Assembly (NCBI GenBank): GCA_950295325.1
Contig: OX485805.1
Coordinates: 43,300,758 to 43,364,757 of the forward strand
Reading direction: 5' to 3'
DNA from: Polytrichum commune
Lineage: Eukaryota > Streptophyta > Polytrichopsida > Polytrichales > Polytrichaceae
DNA length: 64,000 nt
Under the pieces are notes generated by a model. The model was not told the DNA's origin and searched no databases. It was given only the letters and a program-made list of their open reading frames with translations. Numbering within the stretch: the first letter of the stretch is position 1; each line of letters starts with the position of its first letter. The translations under genes were made by a program, and so were the position numbers. Positions 7,230 to 54,320 of the stretch are shown here, in pieces.

Positions 7230-9068
7230 GACACCTGCGTCTTCTCGTAGGTTTAAGATGTTGGGGGGTTCAATTTGCGGATGTTTTTGTTTTTGTTGCA
7301 GAGGTGATGAAGGTTATGATGCTTTTGGAGGTTTGTAGGTGAGAGTGGACACGTACACGTGTCACAGTTTCCAAGAATGTAGTACGGTTTGGAGGAGCTA
7401 ATTGGAAGCTGAGCGTCGAGCTCGCATCAAATTATGGGTTAAGAGGTTGTTGGTTGGAGAGGAGGTGAGTGGTTAGCTCGCTGATGAGCGATGATGCGAA
7501 TTTTGGGCCGAGTTGGTTGGGGTGGTTTGGGTTTTGCTGAATTTGCGGTTGTTGCAGAGGTTTTGACGGTCTTTAGGTGAGAGTGGATTAAGTGCGTCCC
7601 GTATACACATACATATCACCCTTTCAAGAATGTAATACCATATTGCAGGAGCTAATGGGAAGCTAAGCGTCGAGCTCGCACCAAATTTTGGGTTAGGAGG
7701 TGTTCGGTCGGAGCGGAAGTGAGTGCTTAGCTCGCTGATGAGGGATGTGAATTTTGGCTTAGTTGATGTGGTTTGGTGTAATTGAGGTTTTGAAGAAGTT
7801 TTAGGTGATAGTGGATTTTGCGAAAGATATGTGCGTCCCAGACACACATACATGTCACACGTTTCAAGAATGTAATACGATTTGCGGAGTTAATTGGAAG
7901 CCAAGCATCGAGCTCGCATCAAGTTTTGGGTTAGGAGGGTGCCCGGTCGGAGAGGGAGTGAGTGGTTAGCTCGGTGATGAATGATGTGTGAATTTCAGCT
8001 TAGTTGGTGTGGTCTAGTGTGATTTATGGTAATTGCGGTTTTTGTAGAAGTTTTAGATGATAGTGGGTTTTGTGAAGGATATGTGCGTCCCATACACACA
8101 TACATGTCACACCTTCCAAGAATGTAATACCATTCGCATGAGTAAAATTGGAAGCTAAGCATCGAGCTCGCACCAAGTTTTGGGTTAGAAGGTGTTGGAT
8201 CAAAGAGGTAGCGAGTGATTAGCTCGTTGATGAGTGATGGCCTGAATTTCGGCTGAGTTGGTTGAGGTGGTTTGTGTTATGTGTTGAATTGGCGGTTGTG
8301 TTGAGGTTTCGAAGGTTTTTAGGCGAGATTGGATCTTGTGAACTATAAGTGCGTCCCATACACGCACATATCATATCTCCAAGAATGCATTACCGGTTCG
8401 CATGAGCTAATTTGGAAGCCAAGTATCGAGCTCGCATCAAGCTTGGGGGTAAGAGGTCGTCGGTTCGGAGAGGAAGTGAGCGGTTAGCTTACCGGTAAAT
8501 GATGGGAATTTTGGCTTATCGATTGGTGCGGTTTGGTGGAATTTGCGGGGGTGTTGTTGCAAAGTTTTTAAGATTTTGAAGGCATTTAGGTGAGCGTGGG
8601 ATTTTGTGAAAGCTCAGGTGAACTTGGTTTTCTGTCGAAGAAAATTGGAGTGGTTAGCTCCCCGACGAGTGATGGGAATTTCGGCTCATCAATTAGTGCA
8701 ATTTGGTGCAATTTGCGGGGGTGTTGTGTTTTGTCGCAGAATTTAAGGTTTTTAAGGTATTTAGGTGAGCTTGGTTTTGGGTCAAAGTGTTGTCGGGTCG
8801 GAGAGGAAGTGAGTGGGTAGCTCACCGATGAGTGATGGGAATTTCGGCTTATCAATTGGTGCAGTTTGGTGGAATTTGCCGGGGTGTTGTGTTTTGTTTG
8901 CAGAAGATTTGAAGGTTTTGAAGGTATTTAGGTGAGCTTGGTTTTAGGTTAGGAGCTCACCGATGAGTGATGGGAATCGGCTTATGAGTTGGTGCGGTGT
9001 TGGTGGAATGTGCCGGGTGCTGTGTTTTTGGTGCAGAGGTTTTTGAAGGTTTTTAAGGAAAGCTTGGG
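7230..9068. repeat. Degenerate tandem array immediately upstream of the AMP1-like gene
   Basis: Five units of about 240-262 bp are marked by 'aagaatgta' at about 7374, 7625, 7863, 8119 and 8381. Each is followed by 'ggaagc(t/c)aag' and 'gtcgagctcgca', then 'gagtggttagctcg' with 'gatgagtgatg'. From about 8470 shorter units of about 150-170 bp follow ('agctcaccgatgagtgatggg' type, near 8477, 8655, 8818, 8955). The last unit ('gcagaggtttttgaaggttttt', about 9033) runs to within 35 bp of the start codon at 9102. Unit-like words ('ggataagtgcgt') continue to about 9091. Short open frames inside are array by-products. Confidence 0.85.
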
Positions 9069-9101: not shown

Positions 9102-12100
9102 ATGCACCGCTTGTTTTCGGGGGTGCAGTACTTAGCGAAGAGGGTGGTGGGAGGGGGGGCAGCAGGGGAGAGGAATGATGAGGAGACGGAGTTTCTTCAA
9201 TCCTCCTCATCAAGAAGCAGCATGACCTCCATGGCGATCCACCATCCTCGGAAGCCTGGCAGGAATGGGTGGGCCTGTGTTTTGGCCGCACTTGCCATTG
9301 CCATCCTAATCGTTATCTTCAATTTTGCTTGCGGATTGTGGCCTGCGCCAACACATGTAAGATACAACTCCTTTCCACAACTTTTTACACACATAAACAT
9401 ATTGCTGATGTGAGTTTCTGTTCAATTTTGGTAGCTTCTAGCGAAGTCTGTTTCGTAGAAACTCACTATTAGGAATTCAGAGCTGTCGTTCAGAACTTCT
9501 CTACAACACATATATATTACTAATTGCTGAGGAGGATTGCTCAACATTCTTGCGTACCTCCATTTAATCCACAAATTACATCGCTCCGTTGTAATTTATT
9601 TTCAATAATGACAGCTTATAGCGGAGACTGTTGCGCACGAACTACACTATAAGGAATTCACAGCTTTCTTTCACAGATTTTCTGCAACACATACATGTAA
9701 GCTACTTATTGCTGAGGAGGATTGCTCAACATTCTTGCGTGTCTCCATTCAATTGATGACTACACCGCTCCATTGTAATTTGTGTTCAATTTGACAGCTG
9801 ATAGTGAATCCTGTTGCGTAGAAACTCACTATAAAGAGTTCACAGCTGTCTTTCACAACTTTCCTGCAACACATACATGCAGCCTACTTATTGTTGAGGA
9901 GGATTGCTCAACATTCTTCCGTGTCTCCATTCAATTCATAATTACACCGCTCCATTGTAGTTTCTGTTCAAATTCAGCTTACAGCGAAGTCTGTTGCGTA
10001 AATACTTACTATAAGGAATTCAGGGCTGTCGTTTACAACTTTGTTGCAACACATACATGTAAACTACTAATTGCTGAGGAGTATTGCCCAACCCTCTTGA
10101 TTGTCTCCATTCAATTGATAATTACACCGCTCCATTGTCATTTCTGTTCAATTTCAGCGTATAGCGAAGTCTGTTGCGTAGAAACTCACTGTAAGGAAGT
10201 CGCAGCTGTCGTGCACAACTTCTCTGATTGCTGAGGAGGATTTCCCAACATTCTTGCGTGTCTCCATTCAATTGATAGTCACACCGTTCCGTTGTGATTT
10301 ATGTTCAATTGCAGCTTACAGCGAGTTCTGTTGCGTATGATCTCACTAATAGGAATTCACGCCCGTCTTTCACAACTTTTCTTGATTGCTGAGAAGGATT
10401 GCCCAACATTCTTGCGTGTCTGCATTCAATTGATAGTCACACTGTTCCGTTGTGATTTATGTTCAATTTCAGCTTACAGCGAGGTCTGTTGCGGTAGCTA
10501 TTCGGAGAGGTGGTTTTTATTTTCCTTTTCTTTCTTTCTTTCTTTCTTTCTTTCTGTACCAACATGTGACGTTGTTCTTGTTTTTGTTCTTGTCATTGAA
10601 GGAATGGCAAAAAGTGTTCATCGAAAGCGTGGACAACAACAGCCTCAGCCGCCACTTGAAGCAGCTGACCAAGGATCCTCACGTGGCAGGCACACCGGAG
10701 AACTTCGTCACCGCAGAATTTGTGCAAGCCTCATTCGAATCATACGGCCTGGACGCTCACCACAAAGACTACGATGTACTTCTCTCTTACCCACTACACA
10801 GGTCACTCACTCTCACGCAACCCCAGAAGCAGAATCTCGAATTTTCCTTAACTGAGAATGCCGTTCCAAGTGACCCATACAGCAATAACTCCAAGGTCAT
10901 CCCAACCTTCCATGGGTTATCCCCATCCGGGAATGCATCAGGCGAGGTTGTGTATGCCAATTATGGGCGCCAAGAGGATTTCGAGCGCCTAGCCCTACTT
11001 GGGGTCGAAGTTTCTGGTACCATTGTCATTGCGAAGTATGGGTCGATCTACCGAGGTGACATTGTGGAACATGCAGCGAAGGCAGGTGCTCTTGCGGTTG
11101 TGATTTTCTCAGACCCCTTGGATTATGGCCATAATGGCACCGAGGGTTATTATCCCAAGTCAAGATGGTTGCCTCCAAGTGGGGCACAGCGAGGATCGGT
11201 GTTTCAAGGTATTGGGGACCCGCTGACACCCGGATGGGTTAGCGATGTGGATGCAGAGAGGTTGTCTCCGGATGATCCAGCTGCCAAGTTACCGAAAATT
11301 CCTTCGTTACCCATCTCGGCCGAAGATGCGTTACCCATCTTGCAATCCCTCGGTGGTCCTATTGCGCCTGCGGACTGGCAGGGGGCGCTTAATATCTCTT
11401 ACAAACTGGGCCGTGGACCTGGCAGACTGAATCTTTCATATGTGGTGAGTAAGCCAGCCATCCGCCATCCTTGTGAGTGTGATGCCACAGTATGATGAAA
11501 TATTCAACATGTGCAAGGCTAAAATGAAGCGTGTCGTTGTAATCTATGTCTGAATTTGATGCGAAAGTTTAGATTTAGGGTTTAGGGTGTGTCGGACTAC
11601 TGCAACTTACGACTTGTATGTTGTTATGGATTATGGTTTAACAATCTTAACACATGAGAGTGATCCTGTGTTTTATAAATTCATTAATATGTTCAAACTA
11701 AATGAAGTGTGACGTTGCGATTGATGTGTGATGTTTGAAGGTTAGGGGTTAGGGTCTAAGTTTCGCCCGGACTACTGCAACTTGCAGTTTGTTGTATGTA
11801 GTTTTGGATATGGTTTCACAATTGGAAGTCATGAATGCTCCAACACATTTGCCAGTGGGATGGATGCACTGAGAACTATAACTGCCAGAAGTCATGCTAT
11901 GCTATTGTGATTGTTGTTTGTCATAGTTACCTGTTTACTTTGGGAATGATTACTGGAAGTTTCTTTTTCACAGGGAAACGTTGCATTTAAAAGTGATGAG
12001 TTATGGATATGGTTTCACAATTTGAACCTAGGAATCCTCTAAGAAATATATGTAGGGATCTATACACTGAGAACTAAAAGCTTGCAGAGGTAATGCCCTT

Positions 12101-18057: not shown

Positions 18058-20040
18058 CTTGAAGTTCTAATGGCATGCCTCCAAAATGTTGAAATGAGCC
18101 ATCTTGATCAACAGCCTTTTGTGGACTTTGTTCCATATTCTTGTAAAGGTTCTGTGTCAAAAATCGTGAGAGTTCAGAGGCTGTTTTTGGTGGTTTAAAA
18201 AGACCGCATGCTACACTTCTACCTGCAAAGGGCACCCTAACTGTAAGTAATACTTGAAGACACCACTACTATACGACGTTTTTGATGCCTCTGGTTTCTG
18301 GGCGTAAGAGGTTCTGCTTAACAGACGAGTTTTTGGAAGGGTTCATTGTTGTTGTGAACAGGATGCGATGATGTGTTTGTATATTAACTTACCATCAGTT
18401 ACTTAAGAAGAGAGGCTATGGTTCATTGGATGTGTCCTTTCACTGTGACAGATTCAGAAAACATGAGTGTTGGAAGCAGACGGTTTAGCGGATGAGTGCA
18501 AAATGCAGAGAGGATGATTTCTTTGTGATTCTTCATGAGTTACATGCTTCAGTCAATCTGATGTCTCTTATTTCACCTTGGAATTTGTCTTTGATTTCCA
18601 TAAGAATACATTTTGTCATGCCCAACATAGTATTCTTTGTGGCTTTTGTACCCAGAAGTTTGACCCAAATACAACAATTGGAGGTTTGTCAGAACTTCTG
18701 ACATTTTCTGGGAGATCATCAATGTGAATACATACATCGGCTACACTAGAGCTGTAATGTTGAGCTGTAATGTTGAGCTGTAATGTTGAGTCAGTGTCGT
18801 TACATATTCTTCAGGGCTTAATATCTTCACAATGCTAAGTCAACATTTGACATCAATTCAAATCCTTTTGCAGCCTCTTAGATCTTGCAACTATGAAATA
18901 TACAACTTTTAAAGTTGCAAGCATATGTTTGATAAATTGGAATTTATGACAAACTTTTGAAGGCACGAAAAATGGTGCTCTCCAAACTTTAGACAAGGAG
19001 TTCATTTTTATATAGCCGTCTTTTGACAAAAGTCAAGCACATGCCTTATATTTCACCACAATTGAGGGTTTTGACACCACTAAACGCTCCTTGAAGGTAT
19101 ATAACATCACAAGTGTAGCAAAATCTCCTACCAACACAAGAGTATTGGGAGTCTTTATTGGTATTTTTATTCATTCAATGTTGTAGTTTCATGTGATTAA
19201 ACAACAACAATACCAATATAGGTCTATGGACCTTGTGATGTCTCGAGCAGTTACATGGAGTTCAAATTCTCCTCTGTGATCAATATTCCCAAGTTGAAGA
19301 AGTATACAAGGGATATTCGATGACTGATGGATTTTCTCTCATTCCATTCTTGCAAAGGTGGGCACCAAGCTCACTGGACTCTAAAAAAAACTCTCTTGCA
19401 TAAAATCTGGTAGCCATGGTGACATTAAAATATTACCTAAGGTGAATATATGATCAATTGTTTCACGACATGCAATTCATTTTTGTTGACTAATGTGACA
19501 CTAGAATTACAATCCAAGTCCCCAAATTATTATAGTGGGGCCCAGTTGGCTAAAATGAATTAACCACAAAGCGATGAGGGGCATATTGTATACTATACCT
19601 CGTTTACTTTGGTAAGGTTGGTGAGGCCCAACTCAAAGAGCAAGACATCTAACCTTAGCGGTAAAATAATAACTACCCTGTCGGTGGTAGAAAGCTACCC
19701 CTCCCAAGTGGCCATGGCTGGAGCAATGAACGGGGAAAGGCTCAAATCCTAGGATGAACCAAGTTGAGTTTGAGAAATAAGCGGTTTAAAGTTCAAATCT
19801 TCAAGAAAATTACTCATCATTTTAAAGGAGTCTACAAAATACACCTCCAATTTATAAAGAAAAACCAACAGATCACAACATGTAACCGGTTCGACTTGGG
19901 AGCACTAGGATTTTGACCGATCATGGCCGAAAATCTCCCCATGCATTATTGGACTAGAGATGAAGTCGGAGGCTTAGCTCAAAGAGGTGGGCGTCTAGTC
20001 CTGGCCCTCCCAAGTTTGTTGTTACATTAATTCATTTCAA
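18058..20040. other. 3' flank of the AMP1-like gene and intergenic DNA
   Basis: The 3'UTR of the AMP1-like gene must begin at 18058. I see no clear AATAAA signal in the next kilobase. A 14-bp unit (gagctgtaatgttg) is repeated three times at about 18749-18791, directly before the third family B copy (18772-18950). A family G repeat copy lies at about 19745-19970. No other gene seen. Confidence 0.5.
19745..19970 (+). repeat. Dispersed repeat family G, copy
   Basis: Landmarks: 'gagtttgagaaataagcgg', 'actcatcattttaaaggag', 'catgtaaccggttcgac' and 'cactaggattttgaccgatc'. Other copies: 47330-47600 (+), 54118-54320 (+), 53405-53640 (-), and 50480-50570 plus 50940-51050 (-, interrupted). Non-coding; class unresolved. 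Confidence 0.55.
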
Positions 20041-20046
20041 TTACTA

Positions 20047-20415
20047 CACTGATTGATGATATTTAGTGTCACCGATTCTAATTGTCTTGCTCAACACTAA
20101 TTGTAAACCGTGGTATAGTGTCACCAACACTCAATGTGAACCCAACATTATTTATCATTCCTTGTAAATTTTTGGGTGGTAAGGGGAGTATAGATTTACA
20201 GTGTTGCAATTATTGTCACTTACCAAGTGATTTTTCATCCAAATTTCAATCATCCATGACAATGTTTCATCACAAGAGACGGTAGGGTTTTGGCCAATGG
20301 ATGAACTCATCCATTATACATGACAATATTTGTTCACTTATTCATAAGAAGTGTCATCCCAAAAGTTACCGTAGTGACATCAAATACCATATGACACTAA
20401 ATATCATGTTTAGTG
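20047..20415. mobile_element. MITE with palindromic terminal motif (family P1)
   Basis: About 369 bp. The right end is the palindrome CACTAAATAT...TTTAGTG (20395-20415) and the left end a diverged version preceded by TA (20045-20046). The inner sequence ('gtgtcaccgattctaattg', 'cttgctcaacactaattg', 'tttcaatcatccatgac') is the reverse complement of the element at 29759-30137. The right-hand TA has decayed to GA. No open frame; non-autonomous. Confidence 0.65.
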
Positions 20416-20449
20416 GAGGTCCTTCTAGGCTCGGTACTAGGGATGAGGT

Positions 20450-20999
20450 TTACTAAGGTGTGTAGATGTTATTTGGTTTGTTTTTCATGTTCTTCATCTT
20501 CTACATATTAGATTTGCACACCAAAACATGTGTTGCATTAGCAAATGTACGACGAGGTATCATCAAAAATTGGATTGAAAATCAGACCTCTCGTGATCTA
20601 GTTATGATTATCGGAAGTGCATGTTTGGTTGATTCCTTGACTAAATACACAGGTCCTCCCAAACGTGTTCACCATTAAATGTGGAATAGTTAATAAACTC
20701 CGCATGGCAACCTCGGTTAGAACATATTTTCTTATGTTTTGTTATTGTGGTATCAAATCATGAAAACAAGCAGCTAGTCGCGAGAACACTCTAACCTATA
20801 CTAACTCCCATTCATACTAGGTACACGAAAAGCCATGATCGCATTCCCATTCACACTCCTCATCTCAAAAGCCAAACTTTCGGCTCATGTCATATAACAT
20901 CGCTAAGTCTCTTCCCCACATGGCAAAGCCAATAAAATGGAATGTCGACCAAATTAGCGTGAGACAACCTAATCGCACACATCAGTGGTATAAAAAATC
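20450..20999 (+). repeat. ~550 bp repeat (family E), copy 1
   Basis: Highly similar over most of its length to 29190-29715. Both share 'aaggtgtgtagatgtt', 'catgttcttcatcttcta', 'aacatgtgttgcattagcaa', 'catggcaacctcggttag', 'aaaacaagcagctagtcg' and 'cacatggcaaagccaataaa'. It is much better conserved than other repeats here, so it moved or duplicated more recently. Diverged relatives of the 'caaaacttgtgttgcatcaaca' part occur at 21990-22200, 25600-25665 and 37725-37805. The short open frame at 20466-20678 is not supported as coding. Confidence 0.75.
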
Positions 21000-21639: not shown

Positions 21640-21990
21640 TGACAAGGGCCTCCACTATCTTACCTTCATGGGAAGAAATTTAGGAAATAGGAAGAAATTG
21701 ATGCTAGTACGAATAATGAATGATGTCGGTTTGAATAGTAAGAATGTTATGAATAGTGTCAGTGTTTTCAATGATATTTCTGTTATTAAGAAGAATTTTA
21801 GGGAATATTCCTATGATAACAATGTTTCTTGTGGATAGTGTCGGGAGTTTAACTCCACCCAAATTTCCAACTTTAGATTGAATGTACGAATAATAAACGA
21901 ATATTCTCGTTTTGTGCAGGCTCCCCGTGGAATATAATTGACATGTTCTAGGGTCATGGAACCGACCCACATGGCTGAATAATGTTATGC
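21640..21990 (+). repeat. Dispersed repeat family F, copy 2
   Basis: Reverse-complement match to 5766-6150 ('cttaccttcatggg', 'gaatagtgtcagtgttttc', 'gggtcatggaaccgaccc', 'cacatggctgaataatg'). A diverged family E fragment follows at 21990-22240. Decayed DNA element, no gene. Confidence 0.5.
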
Positions 21991-22239
21991 AACTTCTACC
22001 AATTAGATTTACATAACAAAACTTGTGTTGCATCAACAAAAGTTTTTGATGAAGCATCTAAAAGGATTGGACGTGCCTTCATTTAGTCATTGTTATCAAA
22101 AGTGCAACTTTGTAATTTCCCTAGTTGAATACATAAGTCTAGCCATTTGTGTTCATTATTTGAGTGGCAAGTAGTTAATAAAATTTAGAGGCGTTGTCAA
22201 ATATCTTCTAAACGTGTCTTTATGGTGTTTGTTCTTTGA

Positions 22240-25323: not shown

Positions 25324-25976
25324 CTCGAGTACCCTTTCGCCGCGGGGGGTGTTTGCTTGGGGAAGTTCTTAAATGTAGAACACACTAGGAATGACGCATT
25401 ACCCTATACTTTAGGAGCACATGTTCAAAAGAGATTAGACTACATCTTCAAATTCTTTTAACTACTCCTCACTCAACAACGAACACAATTGAGATGACCT
25501 ATGTATCCAGTTAAAGAATTTTTAAAAACATGCATTCCAGGATATCCATAACTAAATAAAAGGAGCTCCAATCTTCGATCCAACTTTTTTTCGCTGATGC
25601 TTTATTGTAGATTTGCTAACGCAACACAAGTTTTGTAGCGTAAATCTAATCGGTAGAAGTTGAAGAACATGAAAAAACGAACCGAAAAACACCCCACTCA
25701 CCTCCATTCCCTCTCTCCATTACCAAGAGATCTTCAACACGAATGCATCACGCACTCCGAAATCCTAGATCAAAATAAACCGAGGCAGGCATTTTCGATC
25801 ACGACAAGGGTCGGTGAGAGCCTAATAGCCGACCATTTGAGGATCCTTGGAGGTGGTCAAAATCGCATGAAAGTCTTCACAGTACCATGCACGGCTGTAG
25901 CGTAAGTACCAAAGTAGTGGACACGCATATGTAACTTAAACTTGCAGAGAAACATTATATTTGTTATATGGGGCTA
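23931..25976. other. Intergenic DNA, no gene seen
   Basis: No credible gene. An (AT)n-(GA)n compound microsatellite lies at about 25290-25321. A fragment resembling repeat family A may be present at 25375-25560. A short inverted family E fragment ('tttgctaacgcaacacaag') lies at 25600-25665. The 80-codon frames here lack recognisable features. Confidence 0.4.
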
Positions 25977-26301
25977 CATTGAATATTATATTTAGTAGTG
26001 TCACCAATTCTAATCGTCTTCCTCAATACTGGTTGTAAGCTCTGATGCAGTGTCACCAACACTCAATGTTACTCTAACATTGTTTGTCATTCCTTGTACA
26101 AGCATTTTGGGGATTATAGAATTACAGTGTTGCAATGACGAGTCGCTCAGTAAGTGAATTTTCATCCAAATTTCAATCATCTAGGGTAATGTTTCATCAC
26201 ATGTCTGGTTAGGATGCTAATCATACCAAGTTTTGTTTCGATAATCGGCATTTGGATCGATGAAAAGTAAGTTGGGATGACACTAACTAGAATATTTAGT
26301 G
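25977..26301. mobile_element. MITE with palindromic terminal motif (family P1), diverged
   Basis: Flanked by TA at 25975-25976 and 26302-26303. The right end is CACTAACTAG...ATTTAGTG (26281-26301); the left end is a degenerate version. The inner sequence ('gtgtcaccaattctaatcg', 'tttcaatcatctagg') matches 20047-20415 in the same orientation. About 325 bp, no open frame. Confidence 0.65.
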
Positions 26302-28910: not shown

Positions 28911-29189
28911 TAGTATAAACATTAACAAATAACATCACACATGTATATATCTGAAATTCTTATTGTCGATTGATTATGTTACAGAGGCCCCTCTCTCAAG
29001 AGTCCTTCGACACAACATACTTGGTGAGCTGAGAGAGAGGGTCTCCATGGTATAATAATGACATTTTAAACACATTATAGGGGCTTATGGGTGGATTTAC
29101 CATGCTAGTTTACCTTCAAAGGCCGGGAAAGCCAATGGTAGTGGCTTGGTTGTGGCTCCATGAGTGCAGATGCTCTCACGATGGATGGG

Positions 29190-29715
29190 GTTTACCTAAG
29201 GTGTGTAGATGTTGTTTGGTTTGCGTTCCATGTTCTTCATCTTCTATAGATTTGATTTGCACAACGAAACATGTGTTGCATTAGCAAATCTACGATGAGG
29301 TATCATCAAAAATCGGATTGAAAATCGGACTTAATCTAGTTATGTTTATTGGAAGTGCATATTTTGTTGATTCCTCCCAAATGTGTTCACTATTGAATGT
29401 GGGATGGTTAATAAACTCCGCATGGCAACCTCGGTTAGGACATATTTTCTTATGTTTTGTTATTGTGGTATCAAATCATGAAAACAAGCAGCTAGTCGCG
29501 AGAACACTCTAACCTATACTAACTCCCATTCATACTAGGTACATGAAAAGCCACGATTGCATTCATGTTCACATGCTCATCTCAAAAGCCAAACTTTTGG
29601 CTCATTTCATATAGCATCGTTGTGTCTCTTCCCCACATGGCAAAGCCAATAAAATGGAATGTCGGCCAAATTAGTGTTGGGCAACCTAATCGCACACATC
29701 AGTGTTATAAAAATC
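29190..29715 (+). repeat. ~530 bp repeat (family E), copy 2
   Basis: Near-copy of 20450-20999 in the same orientation; the region from 'catggcaacctcggttag' to 'cacatggcaaagccaataaaatgg' is almost identical. Both copies lie within 45 bp of a P1 MITE, but on opposite sides, so this is not a simple block duplication. Confidence 0.75.
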
Positions 29716-29758: not shown

Positions 29759-30137
29759 AACTAAATATGATATTTAGTGTCATATGGCAGTTAATGTCAC
29801 TGCCGTAACTTTTTTAGTGACACTTACCTTTAGTGAATAAGTTTACAAATACTGCCATCCCAGCTTACTTTCGATTCATCCAAACGTCAATTAGTGAAAT
29901 AAAGTTTGGTATGATTCGCATCCTAACAATTCGGCGATGAAATAATGACATGGATGATTGAAATTTGGATTAAAAATCACTTAGTAAGTGGACAATACCT
30001 GCAACACTTCAAACCTGTAATGCCCAAAATATTTTACAACTAATGCCAAGTACTGTTAGGTTAACATTCAGTGTTGGTTTACAGTTAGCATTGAGCAAGG
30101 CAATTAGAATCGGTGACACTAAATATCATATTTAGTG
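29759..30137. mobile_element. MITE with palindromic terminal repeats (family P1), best-preserved copy
   Basis: 379 bp, flanked by TA at 29757-29758 and 30138-30139. Both ends carry the CACTAAATAT...ATTTAGTG type palindrome (the left with one substitution, AACTAAATATG). The terminal match continues into 'gtgtca'. The inner sequence is the reverse complement of the 20 kb and 26 kb copies. It lies about 270 bp beyond the probable 3' end of the RhoGAP transcript. The TA target duplication suggests a Tc1/mariner-type mobiliser; the family is otherwise unknown to me. Confidence 0.75.
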
Positions 30138-36386: not shown

Positions 36387-37875
36387 ATACTATCCTTCTC
36401 AAAAAGACTACGTCATCTGGTTTGTACTCAAATCAAAAGATTGAAACACCAAAACATTGAATGAGACAATTACCGGGTTTATTTACCCAAGTGATAGTTA
36501 AGCTCCTTTCCCGAGGGTTACCAAGGGCATGTGAACCCATGTTTTCCTATGTTAGTGCATTAATAACCACCCTGGTAAATTATGGTTCGGCTCTAGCCAT
36601 AGGATTACATCTCTCCTTCCACTCCATGAATCCACTAAGGTATTTTGGTGTTGTTTAATAAATTTTCTTAGTCGGACACCTATTTTTGATTGATGTGTGG
36701 ATTTGTGAGGATTAAAAAACAAAGCATCATAAAGACACATGTTTCAAAGATATTGGACTACACCTTCAAGTTTTATTGCTATTTCACTTTAAGCATGGTA
36801 AAGTGAGCAAGAAAAGTGGTATGCCCTTCAATTCTTAAAAAAAAGTTCATATATAGTAAGGGAAGTAGGCTCAATCTTATACAAAATGTTGTTCCATATT
36901 CATGAAGCTCAATTCTAATGGATTTGACCAAATAAAGTACAACATTTGTACATCGTCAGTGTTATGGGGAAATCTATAAAGTAGACCCTGGATCAAGCTC
37001 AAATCTTTTGTATTTCAATTTTTATATAATTTATTAGTCCAGTTGATGAATTTGACAAAATCATAATGTATATTAGTGCACCGATATTTTTAGATGTAAA
37101 CTACATTTTCTCAAGGTCTCTTCATTTTCACTTTTTGAAAATTGAGAATTAAAGAAGTGAATTTTATAAAGTTTAGAATCTATTGTGGTGGATGTAAATC
37201 ACATACTTTGCAAAAGCATTTATAAAATTGTCATGGCCCACCTTATTAATAACCTTAATATGAATGATGATTATTGTTTTGAATCATATAACTAGGAATG
37301 TGACTACCGTAACACCATAGCAGGTTCATCACCTGGCGAACGAATATTTAATTATTTTGAAAAAATAAGGTTCGTTTGCTTAAAATATTTTTTTTTGAAA
37401 TTCGTTCTTCTATTTTGAGGAAAAAAAATAATTCGTCCTGGAACAGAGTAGATGTACCGGGATGACAACTTAAATTGATTTTTTCAACAGAGTCTGCTTC
37501 ACCCAACTTTCTGGATTTTCGTTCTTTTCATAATATAAATTTCCATAATTTCGTTCTTCATGGCCTGGAATTTCTGATTTTTTTCGTTTTTTTTTTTGAA
37601 TTATTTAAGAACGAACCTGCTATGGTGTTACGGTACTTGCCCCTCCAAAGTGACAAGGTATAGACTTGGTTCATTTGACTATGCTTTGGCCAATAACCAT
37701 AAGTAAATCAAGGGAGGTTCAATTTGTTGATTTGTTGATTATCGTAGGTTTGCTGATGCAACACAAGTTTTGTTGTGCAAACATGATTGGTAGAAGTTGG
37801 AGAACATAAAAAATTAATTCAATAACACCAATGTAACTCAATTCCATGTCATGGCAATGTGGACGAAAATCACTA
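36387..37875. other. Intergenic DNA, no gene seen
   Basis: Contains a partial family A copy (about 36670-36790). It also has an imperfect long inverted segment at 37318-37640: 'gtaacaccatagcaggttc' near 37308 pairs with 'gaacctgctatggtgttac' near 37612. This gives a foldback of about 330 bp with T/A-rich arms. A fragment related to family E lies at 37725-37805. No gene. Confidence 0.45.
37306..37634. mobile_element. Foldback/MITE with long inverted repeats
   Basis: The left arm 'taacaccatagcaggttc' (about 37309) is complementary to the right arm 'gaacctgctatggtgtta' (about 37613). Complementarity extends inward for several tens of bases: 'cgaacgaatatttaattattttg' against 'gaattatttaagaacg', and 'aattcgttcttc' against the central 'atttcgttcttc'. 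It looks like a hairpin-type MITE. No open frame of note. Confidence 0.55.
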
Positions 37876-38287
37876 CACTAAAAAGGATATTTAGTGTTTG
37901 ATTATATTCAATGTTGTTACCACCCAACCCTACTCAAGTCTAATTTTCAATTGCTTAACAATTAGTGTTAGACATAAATGTGTCGTTACCTTCCATACTG
38001 CCACTTTATTTCATGTGAAGCATGGACTTCACTAGACTTGCGATTTTAGGTGTGGTGCCCCACCTTCTTGCTCGCTAATCTCTCGTCTGCCGAAGTCGAC
38101 GGCATTTTAGGGTTGCTGTCTTCCCGTCTTACTAACACTAAATTAAAACATGTAACTTTCACATATTACTATAGTTGATATTTAGTGTTCGAGTTTACAT
38201 TAATCGGTACTTACTTTCATAGGGTTATTGACATTTAGTACATGCGTTCGTATTTAGTGTATTAAACACTAAATATCCTCTTTAGTG
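37876..38287. mobile_element. MITE with TA target duplication (family P2)
   Basis: 412 bp, flanked by TA at 37874-37875 and 38288-38289. The left end (37876-37896) is CACTAAAAAGGATATTTAGTG less one base. The right end (38267-38287) is its near-exact inverted copy, and the match extends inward by several bases. A second copy is at 53798-54115 with the same ends and internal words ('attcaatgttgttaccaccc'). Confidence 0.8.
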
Positions 38288-39751: not shown

Positions 39752-40036
39752 CACTAAATACCATACATGGTGTTGAGAGAGAAGGTTGCGGGCAGCCCGA
39801 GAATGCGAGGGGGAAAAAGTTGCATTTACACCTGGATGGGCCTCCATCCAGGGCCAGCTGGAAGGACCCGGGCGGGGTGGGTGGGGACAGTTGGGCCCGC
39901 GAACCCAAAAAAAGGGTTGCGCTCCAAGAGAAAAAGGGCGGGGAGGCGCTGCCAGGTGTCCTTGGCCACCCATACCCGCGCATCTATGGTACCTATGTCC
40001 GTGGATATCTGACCCCAGGGGCCTGTTTATTCTCAC
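39752..40036. other. GC-rich island beside a palindromic P1-type end
   Basis: A P1-type terminal palindrome (CACTAAATACC...ATGGTG, 39752-39772) is followed by about 260 bp of GC-rich, CpG-containing DNA within AT-rich surroundings. All three plus frames are open for 80-98 codons, which the composition explains. No domain recognised. Function unknown. Confidence 0.4.
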
Positions 40037-43009: not shown

Positions 43010-44058
43010 AAATTGAGAGATTATTGAGTGTTGAGAAATTCCCCAATATTTTCACTTTTAAATGATTTTTTCCCTACCATTTAGGTCACTTGACTCATTG
43101 ATTTCCAAAAATATTAGGCTTGATTTTTTTTTATCATTTTTTGACCAACCCACTATTAGCCTACAATATATATCATAGTTTTCTCCTTGCATATTGTTTT
43201 TGATATGCATGCAACTCAACAAATGTTTGTGCATCTTTACACTTCAAACAGCATTGGTTGATGTTGACATGCTTTTAGATATCTACACCTTTTTTTTTAA
43301 AGCTTAGAATTGCAAATGCAAGATGAAAATGACTACCCTTGCTCTAACATGCATAAAGACGTTGGTATGAGGGTGACATCAACATTTCATTTCCACTTCT
43401 CAATGAAAGCTCACCTAAAAGCACACACACATGTATATGAGCGTACCTCTCATCCATCCAGTACAAAAACTTGACCCCATTCTATAAGAGCATTCTTTAA
43501 GAGAATCTCTTATTTGCACTATCTTTAACCATGTGGTTGGGAAGTACTCAATTTTTAGTCATGACATGGATCCCTTGCTCTTTATTTCTCATGTTTGCTA
43601 AATCTTTTCAGTATGGGTGAAGGAGCACTAAGGCATACATGCCTTAAATGGACACATTTAGCTCTACACCCACATCTCGCCAGATATGAAGCACACAATT
43701 AGTGTGAGATGACTAGGAAATCCATATCTTGCCCATAGCCATATGTAGCCATACTCCTCATGATTTTGGAGTATGTTAAACAACAACCTATTTGAGCTAG
43801 ACCCTCACCGATGTTATTACGATAAGGGGGGTCTAGTTAAAAATCTAGCCCCATACGTTTGTGGTCGATTCATCCCACAATCAAATGACCGTAATAAATG
43901 ACTTCATTACATCCTATAATAGAATTGACTGTGTTTTTGCATTCCGTAACACCGATGGGAACCCAAGTCAAATATGTGGACGCCTAGCCTGCTCCCACAA
44001 TTTCCAGACACAATAAGAATACAATATTCATTTTTGGTATGATGTTTTCTTCCTTGAA
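43010..44058. other. Intergenic DNA with an interrupted family A copy
   Basis: An antisense family A copy begins at 43640-43800, is interrupted by about 430 bp containing the foldback at 44059-44220, and resumes at 44230-44390. A fragment like one end of the family H MITE ('gagcgtacctctcatccatcc') is at about 43440. No gene. Confidence 0.45.
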
Positions 44059-44220
44059 GATCATAACATTATTCACATCCGTAACAATGTTATGTGGGAT
44101 TGACAATATTCCACATAATATTCCCCACATTCGGTCTAAATATGAAAATATTATGGAATGTTTTGTAGAACATTGTCAGTCTCACATAACATTGTTATGG
44201 ATCTGAATAATGTTATGATC
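44059..44220. mobile_element. Short foldback element (hairpin MITE)
   Basis: The left arm 'gatcataacattattcacat' and the right arm, reverse-complemented 'gatcataacattattcagat', match over about 50 bp with few differences. Weaker pairing continues inward. Total 162 bp, loop about 50-60 bp. It is inserted within a family A copy. Confidence 0.75.
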
Positions 44221-44390
44221 TCCCTTCCCAATCATGTCTATTATTGAGCCTAGAATGGTTAACAAAAGTTTAAACACAAGGCCAATCTCTTGTGAACACA
44301 TGGTCTTTTTGGTGGTTGTTCTTAGATAAACACTTAACCACGCACCATTCAAATATAAAGTGTTTGTATAAGACGAGTAATTGAATTAGG

Positions 44391-46382: not shown

Positions 46383-48180
46383 GATACTAGGTTGACTTTA
46401 CCTAGGCATGAAGATTCTTGAATGCTATATAGACCCAAATGATGTTGAAAAATTCAAACAAATCTTAAATACCTATATCTTGTTGGTATTAAAATGTAGA
46501 ATCCTCAATATAGATGCCCCCAATGATATTAAAAGATAAAAATAAATATCCAATTCAATAAAGGTGTCGTTGTAGTCAAAGAGTGGATTGCCTCCTATAG
46601 TGATCAATGCCTCTCTTATGGGTTGGCCTTGCCATTCTCTTCTAGTGTCACAATAGTAACTACAATAATATAGAAAGGGACTACAATCATCACAACCACC
46701 TCCATTACGTATTCTATCATAGCTGGTGAAGTAAGAGAGTAGAGGCAGCCATAACCGGTCACTTAAGAGAATTATGCGCCCAATATGAAAAGGTATAAGG
46801 CGGTGTTAATTTTTCCTATGTAGGAAGATAGAAATTAAGAGGACTACAATTTTTTGGTAACTTTATTCTTTAAATTATGAATTTGTAAAGTCAAAAGTTG
46901 GTCCAAACACATTACTGATGTCTAGAGGTTGCCACAACTGCTCATTTTAACCGCTCATTCATCTTCGCTTTAAAACTCAAAACTAGTACATGTGTCATGG
47001 CACTATTGGTTTCAGATTGATCAAAATTTAGTCCCTTCCTTATTGAAATTCAATCCCAACCAGATCGAAATTTTGGTACCCAATAGATTGCCGATGGGGT
47101 CTTGATTGAGTCAAGGCGCCTCTACTACAATTGAGGTTGTGGTCATTGTAGCTTGTGGTTATCACCAATGTACGTGTTCCCGATCTTTGCAAATCAACCT
47201 AAGAAGGTCGAGAACATGGCTCGGGAAGAACTGGATGTTAGTCACATATGAACTGGTTGAGGGGCTGATCACACCGATCAGTTCCGACACCATCCGTCAG
47301 CATCTCCAGCTACAATAGTGTGAAAAGTGGTGGGCCAAAATCTATTTCTCAACATAATCCCCAGCACGACTCGAACCAGATGGAAAGTTTGGTGTGATCG
47401 GGGCATGAGTTTGAGAAATAACTAGTTGAAATTGGAGACTTCAAGAGAATTGCCGATCATTTTAGAGGAATCTAGAGAATATACCTCATATGAATACAAC
47501 AAAACCATAAGATGTCAACATGTAACCGGCTGGATTTAGAATCACTAGGATCTTGACCAACTATATATGCCCAAAAACTTCCCGGGCACTAGTCGAGAAG
47601 TTGGTTCATGTTATTTTACTTGAAAACTCTTACAATGTTCATCACATAAGCTGCAAAGGAAACCCCGACACACTCCATAATACTTTGACAAAATGCATTG
47701 AACTTACTAAGGTTTGTCGAAGCTTGGGATCGGGTACCTAACCCATGATTAGGGTGTCGATCTCCATGCTCGTATGATAAATATAGAACGGAAGAAAGCA
47801 AACTACACGCATCAACTACAAAAGATATGCGTGGCCATCCATTAAGGAGCACTTTATGGATAAGAAGGGTGCGCACGTGTACATATAGGGTTGTGACCTA
47901 TTATGGATCCCTTGTTATGTGGGGAGTTGTGGAAACATACCACATGCTACTAAAGAAATAAAAAGCAAGAGGAGGCAAAGGCACATGCAACACATCCCAA
48001 TGTGTAGCAAATTAGCTTTGAGACAAGTTCAAAATTAACCTTCCAACTCTTTGTGGATACCTCACCTTTGTATAGGAGGTGACTTATGTAAGCTACAATG
48101 ACTTCCAAACATAATGCAATGCCCTTTACAAACATACAAACTTGACATTTTCTCGCAAACGGGAAAACCTTACGTCATGT
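46383..48180. other. Intergenic DNA with a family G copy
   Basis: A family G copy lies at about 47330-47600 ('catgtaaccggctggattt', 'ggatcttgaccaac'). No gene recognised; frames of 60-86 codons lack features. Confidence 0.4.
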
Positions 48181-53404: not shown

Positions 53405-54320
53405 GTGACCGGGCACATTTTTGGGCATAATCGGTCGAGATCCTAGTAGTGTTTCCAAGCACAATTGGTTACATGTTGACATCTTTCGGTTTTTCTCATC
53501 AATTTGAGGTATATTACATAATATGTATAAAGTTAACGGCAATTTTCCTGAAGCCTGGAACTTCAACCAATTATTCCTCAAACTCAATCGGTTCATCTGT
53601 AACTAGCAGTGAATTCCCTCATTCATTTTCACCAAAAACCACCCAAAATGTTCCTTTGAAAGTGAAAGGAAAACAAGCCAAGAAAGAATATAAACACAAG
53701 GAAACAGGCAAGATTCAGTAAAAGGAAGTTAGACTTCCAAGGAGCACAACATTTTGACATGTTTTGCAACCATGAATGGGGAGAACCTGAACCGCTACAC
53801 TAAAAAGGATACTTAGTTGTTTGATTATATTTAATGTTGTTACCACCCTACCCTACTCAACACTAATTTCCAATTCATGACAATCAATGTTAGACATAAA
53901 TGTGTTGCAACCTTCCCTACTGCCACCTCCCTGATTACATCCTTTCTTTCATATCCTTACTTACACTAAATTCGAACATGTAACTTCCACATATTATCAT
54001 AGTTGACATTTAGTATTTGAGTTTACATGTAACGTTATTTACTTTCATGGGGCTATTGACATTTACTGTACACGTTCGTATTTCGTGTACCAAACACTAA
54101 AAATCCTTTTTAGTGTAACTATAGATGAACCGGTTCAGTTTGAGGTCCAAAACTTCATGAAAATCACCCATCATTTTGGAGGAATTTATAGAACACACCT
54201 CAAACCAATGAAGGAAAACCGAAAGACATCATCAACATGTAAACCGGTTGGGCTTGGAAACACACTAGGATCTCGACCGATTATGCCCCAAATATCTCCC
54301 CCCGGACATTCATTTTGCAG
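53405..54320. repeat. Inverted pair of family G copies flanking a P2 MITE
   Basis: Family G is antisense at 53405-53640 ('gggcataatcggtcgagatc') and sense at 54118-54320 ('ggatctcgaccgattatgcc'). The P2 MITE lies between them and abuts the right copy. The pair could fold back on itself. Confidence 0.6.
53798..54115. mobile_element. MITE with TA target duplication (family P2), copy 2
   Basis: 318 bp, flanked by TA at 53796-53797 and 54116-54117. The left end starts CACTAAAAAGGATACTTAG and the right end closes in CCTTTTTAGTG. Shorter than the 37.9 kb copy by internal deletion ('attaatgttgttaccaccc' region retained). Confidence 0.8.

Follow-up and report, generated by a model that had tools for sequence, protein, structure and literature searches.

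Two small repeat families, P1 (E1, E2 and E3) and P2 (E4 and E5), detected by comparing a stretch of Polytrichum commune DNA with itself, carry terminal inverted repeats (TIRs) that are themselves palindromes, built from the heptamer CACTAAA and its inverted copy. The stretch, a window of 64,000 nt from contig OX485805.1, was together with published papers the scope of our analysis. With lengths of 318–412 bp, non-coding sequence, TIRs of about 21–24 bp, 3 and 2 copies, respectively, and TA flanks in 4/5 elements, the families show the hallmarks of MITEs; they are a real, non-random feature of this kind (Table 1). A fuller reading, to which we give roughly even chances, is that P1 and P2 are related non-autonomous MITEs that were trans-mobilized by one TA-inserting DDE transposase lineage, most likely of the CACTA-Mirage-Chapaev (CMC) type.

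The window has a G+C content of about 41% (mean of 16 rows). Three of the 15 long ORFs scanned contained Pfam families, namely TOG/HEAT including CLASP_N, the P21-Rho-binding domain (PBD) and the PA domain, and their products resemble plant CLASP, RopGAP and AMP1. These families and this resemblance indicate that the window is eukaryotic, with a land plant as the most likely source. Degenerate repeats, their copies mostly 155–270 bp apart, form two blocks at 7389–8950 and 9427–10540, the latter extending to where the PA-domain ORF starts (10437). Of the 17 ORFs (stop to stop) with 150 aa or more in the window, 15 were scanned against Pfam, which revealed no transposase, and the Rfam search of the window gave no match at the gathering score. 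Pattern scans of genome-contig and viral-contig collections with the two exact palindrome forms yielded 0 matches each, as expected because the sequence is from a plant.

Table 1. Elements of the two MITE families and their terminal and subterminal motifs in the window.
Feature	Position	Strand	Remarks
E1, family P1, 369 bp	20047..20415	-	Flanks: left TA, right GA; left end with degraded outer arm
E2, family P1, 325 bp	25977..26301	-	TA outside both ends; left end degraded
E3, family P1, 379 bp	29759..30137	+	TA outside both ends; palindrome pairs: left 9/10, right 10/10
E3 left terminal palindrome	29759..29779	+	AACTAAATATGATATTTAGTG
E3 right terminal palindrome	30117..30137	-	CACTAAATATCATATTTAGTG; sole 21-mer of the window with 10/10 pairs
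Two subterminal TTTAGTG copies in E3 (29813, 29829)	29813..29835	+	Motif match
E4, family P2, 412 bp	37876..38287	+	TA outside both ends
Phased array, E4 right end: TTTAGTG N7 CACTAAA N7 TTTAGTG	38253..38287	+	E5 counterpart at 54081, one substitution
E5, family P2, 318 bp	53798..54115	+	TA on both sides; left end degraded; between arms of a larger inverted repeat

The P1 terminal repeat, CACTAAATATGATATTTAGTG, has perfect 10-bp arms around one central base, and in the P2 repeat, CACTAAAAAGGATATTTAGTG, 8/10 pairs are complementary. Read from the outside inward, the end consensus is TA followed by CACTAAATATGATATTTAGTGTCA for P1 and TA followed by CACTAAAAAGGATATTTAGTGTTT for P2. The palindrome comprises the first 21 bases, with all 10 pairs formed in the best P1 copy and 9/10 in the right end of E5. 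Over these 21 bases the left and right ends of the same element share 20 positions in E3, 20 in E4, 18 in E5, 16 in E2 and 7 in E1, the left end of which has an extra base; over the next 9 bases the agreement is only 3, 5, 4, 4 and 2 in the five elements in the same order, implying that the palindrome is approximately the entire terminal repeat. Between the families, the right end of E3 and the left end of E4 are identical at 19/21 bases.

These palindromes far exceed chance expectation. The window contains 5 exact occurrences of CACTAAA-N(0–30)-TTTAGTG, compared to 0.02 expected, and none of 100 shuffles reached 5. When up to one substitution was allowed in CACTAAA-N7-TTTAGTG, 7 sites were found and all 7 were ends of E1–E5. 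Among 21-mers with at least 9/10 pairs, 5 lie within the elements (4 ends and the subterminal site at 38253) and 2 in the remaining window; at 8/10 pairs or more, the numbers are 10 within and 53 outside. The pattern counts against shuffles bear out the palindromes that an earlier note on this DNA had described at the five elements, and the outcome which that note named as contrary to its proposal, a motif occurring mostly unpaired at random, does not hold within the window. Its description of CACTAAA...TTTAGTG at both ends of every element is correct for most ends, and fails at the three degraded ones (3/10), all on the left: E1, which has an altered outer arm, the extra base and, over three lengths, a best count of 6 pairs, E2 with 7/10 pairs and E5 with 6/10. 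Read inward, CACTA is present at 7/10 ends, the exceptions being E1 left (CACTG), E2 left (CATTG) and E3 left (AACTA), and these termini agree with those of plant CACTA elements of the En/Spm type (CACTA or CACTG ... TAGTG or CAGTG). Terminal CA is found at 9/10 ends, with AA at E3 left.

Scanned blindly for 16-nt inverted repeats that are flanked by TA and contain at most 3 mismatches, the window gave 31 matches in total, E3, E4 and E5 among them, compared to 7, 2 and 3 matches in three simulated windows; E1 was missed because its right side has no TA, and E2 because its mismatches are too many. The pairwise identity is 68–73% within P1 and 77% within P2 (gap columns excluded, up to 26 bp of flank counted in), with E4 and E5 aligning in two blocks that are 85–88% identical, and as judged from their sequences the copies are old. 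Sequences directly outside the ends are unrelated, and the element boundaries are sharp. Between the interiors of P1 and P2, the self-comparison of the window found no similarity at E≤1e-6, which confirms that the motif joins two families with unrelated interiors, as had been proposed.

TA adjoins 9/10 ends, although its frequency in the window is 0.067, and it stands on both sides of 4/5 elements; the flanking described earlier is thus correct with the exception of E1, where the right flank is GA. The flanking triplets of E1 to E5 are CTA/GAG, CTA/TAG, CTA/TAC, CTA/TAG and CTA/TAA, giving a 3-bp match in 0/5, and the 3-bp target duplication of plant CACTA (En/Spm) was not found. The CA ends and TA flanks agree with CMC/CMCT elements in the wide sense (mostly CA..TG termini, 2–5 bp duplication), a comparison with the description in PMC12730594 in which the duplication is judged from the flanks. 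When the two flanks were joined for each of the five elements and used as a query, no match across the junction was found within the window; the search matched only the elements' own flanks, up to the junction from either side. The TA duplication is therefore read from the flanks of five old copies. The left flank is CTA in 5/5 elements, the right flank is TAG in E2 and E4, and C precedes only 22% of the TA sites in the window. The flanks of E1–E5 hint at CTA or CTAG as a preferred target.

The heptamer is not confined to the termini. Element interiors contain 6 exact copies in 1583 bp (0.25 expected), compared to 10 in 62197 bp outside, an approximately 22-fold higher density. They are distributed as 2 in E3, 3 in E4, 1 in E5 and 0 in E1 and E2, and one is homologous between E4 (38136) and E5 (53964); counting this pair once leaves n=5, with a Poisson P of about 7e-6. 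With one mismatch allowed, 21 interior copies are found (E1 3, E2 1, E3 4, E4 7, E5 6), a density of about 13 per kb; the window as a whole has 5 per kb. In E4 the interior heptamers occur in both orientations; at 7 bp the motif is shorter than the 10–20 bp described for CACTA elements.

Although palindromic, the ends have polarity. Their centre is asymmetric, GGA in P2 or G in P1, with TA on the outside and TCA or TTT on the inside, and by centre and flanks the left and right ends are inverted relative to each other. The earlier suggestion that the ends are interchangeable in orientation was accordingly too strong, as the centre and the adjoining bases give direction. A scoring matrix was built from the ten ends, read inward. 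It lists nine of them (E1 left, which has the extra base, is missing), and at these the inward reading outscores the reverse by 10–20 bits; because the matrix derives from the same ends in the same direction, this margin is purely descriptive. A further copy of the motif had been proposed at 39752..39772 (+). It has 3 mismatches in the inner arm and no TA flank, and its score of 16.7 bits in the matrix was reached in 2/20 simulated windows, indicating chance level; we rejected it.

Each terminus had also been proposed to form a hairpin of its own. Folding single ends as ssDNA, which covered 8 ends (E1 left and E2 left were left out), gave −3.7 to −7.4 kcal/mol for 7/8, and for these seven no more than 4/200 shuffles were as stable; E5 left gave −0.6 kcal/mol, which is shuffle level, 116/200 shuffles folding equally well. 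The folds of whole E3 and E4 were more stable than 100/100 shuffles (z of −4.4 and −4.6) and were dominated by pairing between the two ends. Single-end hairpins are thus possible and, in these predictions, modest in stability. More simply, the ends can be read as double-stranded protein sites: two-fold symmetric sites of this kind would account for the heptamer array, so that hairpins are not needed.

The shared TIRs, TA flanks, sharp boundaries and repeated heptamer are observed directly, and from them we infer the following protein steps. A DDE transposase of one lineage, inserting at TA, would act in trans on both P1 and P2, the elements of which are too short to encode such an enzyme. The terminal heptamer CACTAAA would serve as the cleavage-end motif, and the inverted second heptamer, 7 bp inward, would give each end a docking site with two-fold symmetry. 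By analogy with En/Spm and soybean Tgmt* (PMC2613891), the docking partner may be either the transposase or a TNPA-like accessory DNA-binding protein, which would occupy the two inverted heptamers as a dimer. The additional interior heptamers in some elements would strengthen binding, like the subterminal repeats of CACTA elements, and the enzyme may recognize the side to be cut from the external TA, the internal TCA or TTT and the asymmetry of the centre. The source enzyme would be of the CMC type with a 2-bp TA duplication. Movement of both families by one transposase is consistent with the shared TIR, the flanking TA and the sharp boundaries; of the earlier proposal of one transposase recognizing a self-complementary end, this part agrees with the sequences, and the truly interchangeable ends do not.

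In favor of a CMC-type enzyme we count the common TIR of at least 21 bp joined to unrelated interiors, the TA flanks, the CACTA termini, the interior heptamers and the phased arrays of P2. Against it we count the flanks without a matching 3-bp triplet, the restriction of exact interior heptamers to E3–E5, the Pfam scan without a transposase, and the Spm-like terminal repeats, which continue as CACTACAAGAAA, unlike those of P1 and P2. CACTA elements are described as having subterminal motifs that occur as direct and as inverted copies (PMC8195511), which in soybean Tgmt* form stem-loops (PMC2613891). The 3-bp duplications described for plant CACTA elements (PMC10741241) also count against a CMC-type enzyme, as does the report that CACTA is the least represented superfamily among the MITEs of 207 plant genomes (PMC12550479). 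Because plant CACTA duplicates 3 bp, finding CACTA termini next to TA is atypical in plants, making Tc1/mariner a serious rival. The same MITEs could have been moved by a Tc1/mariner or pogo-like transposase, for which a TA duplication would be normal and the resemblance to CACTA superficial; we consider this somewhat less than evenly probable. The TA at nearly all ends agrees with such a mover, as do the motifs of palindromic and mirror type that Bigot 2005 is said to have reported from the terminal repeats of mariner, whereas the P1 and P2 termini are unlike the CTCCCTC of Stowaway. Plant members of the superfamily are described as always duplicating TA (PMC10741241), its TIRs as typically 12–28 nt long (PMC4054914), and pogo-like elements as present in Selaginella and dicots (PMC7325037). 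Moss has Tc1-like elements as well, but with CAGT...ACTG termini (PMC4054914) in place of the CACT of P1 and P2, and subterminal repeats in two orientations are not cited as a hallmark of the group in the available portions of these papers.

The remaining alternatives concern the palindrome itself. It is unlikely, in our view, that the palindrome is non-functional, with the outer arm alone mattering and the inner copy being an inherited accident, a reading compatible with the others. The P1 and P2 repeats look homologous and the palindrome may therefore have arisen once; pairing is also incomplete, with 8/10 pairs in P2, pair 8–14 matching in 5/10 ends and pair 10–12 in 4/10. However, the inner heptamer is conserved as well as the outer or better at 8/10 ends (the exceptions are E2 right and E5 left), and both P2 elements have an additional heptamer at the identical N7 spacing. 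Much less probable is that the palindromes are sites of a tyrosine recombinase, Crypton-like or loxP-like (arms of 7–10 bp, spacer of 1–7 bp), rather than transposon ends. Like a loxP-like site, every end is indeed symmetric and complete in itself around a short asymmetric spacer, yet insertion by a tyrosine recombinase should leave direct repeats without a TA duplication, and here the spacers are inverted and TA lies outside all ends but one. Movement as single-stranded DNA, with an HUH enzyme (IS200/IS605-like or Helitron-like) recognizing each hairpin, is hardly credible: the seven stable single-end folds would suit it, but E5 left has no stable fold, the ends of E3 and E4 pair with each other in the whole elements, and true TIRs at both ends with TA flanks are foreign to such systems, which to our knowledge have neither.

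Considering the closest known systems, CMC-NA_1 and CMC-NA_2 from wasps and polydnaviruses (PMC6004678) are, like P1 and P2, short and non-coding with CAC/GTG termini and a 2-bp duplication; they differ in coming from insects and viruses, and a palindromic TIR is not mentioned in the main text of that paper. The fungal EnSpm-like ESTA (PMC12730594) shares the TA duplication and belongs to the CMCT clade, in which termini are mostly CA..TG; it has a transposase and a TET/JBP gene, and the termini compared here with those of P1 and P2 are the ones given for the clade. Plant CACTA elements (En/Spm, Tgmt*, LsC1; PMC2613891, PMC8195511) share the CACTA...TAGTG termini and a pairable subterminal motif in both orientations, but are described with a 3-bp duplication and TIRs of 13–28 bp, and the paired motifs of Tgmt* are subterminal rather than at the terminus. 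The plant Tc1-like PpTc1 and PpTc2 (PMC4054914) share the TA duplication and short TIRs and differ in their CAGT...ACTG termini and 33-bp repeats, the word 'palindrome' being absent from the main text. Among animal TIR elements there is a precedent in palindromic transposons (PMC3212995); in the systems described there, whole elements are palindromic or the motifs lie inside mariner ends. No report of palindromic transposon ends such as those of P1 and P2 was found in the open-access papers searched.

Other repeats surround the MITEs. Repeat R, of about 550 bp, is present at 20441–20996 and 29183–29713 (87% identical), with partial copies at 21982–22217, 25419–25691 and 37690–37827. Copies lie about 25–285 bp from four of the five MITEs, namely E1 (20441–20996), E2 (25419–25691), E3 (29183–29713) and E4 (37690–37827), and the copy at 21982–22217 is about 1.5 kb from its nearest element, E1. 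A composite of repeat R and MITE was rejected, and repeat R was treated as separate, because it lies on different sides of the MITEs and in different orientations to them, and because the MITEs have sharp boundaries; an insertion preference common to both is possible. About 240 bp from E4, a TA-flanked candidate element of 327 bp (37307–37633) has TIRs that start CCGTAACACCATAGCAGGTTC, with 21 bases identical at both ends, and its ends are unlike those of P1 and P2. Inverted arms at 53419–53521 and 54186–54292 (81% identical) enclose E5, which may therefore have inserted into an older inverted-repeat element; single stretches related to these arms lie at 19753–19940 and 47406–47589. A foldback at 44058–44221 has 67-nt arms that are 88% complementary and 30 nt apart, and as its arms extend beyond the scanned TA, the TA is not its boundary.

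Transposon ends are usually polar, and a palindromic end poses the question of how the enzyme tells inside from outside, for which the heptamer array provides a concrete, testable site. Plant MITEs are assigned to superfamilies by TIR and duplication, a rule that the combination of CACTA termini with TA flanks cuts across, and such elements could therefore be misfiled. The significance would be clear only if the symmetric end is functional or the transposase new. It is conceivable, although we hold it doubtful, that P1 and P2 represent a transposase lineage of plants that is either new or CACTA-like and TA-duplicating, and that uses a symmetric TIR of 21–23 bp in which one heptamer alternates in orientation at 7-bp spacing, polarity coming only from the centre and the flanking bases. 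If so, a dimer would be predicted on each end, and the enzyme would occasionally cut on the wrong side, leaving solo palindromes behind.
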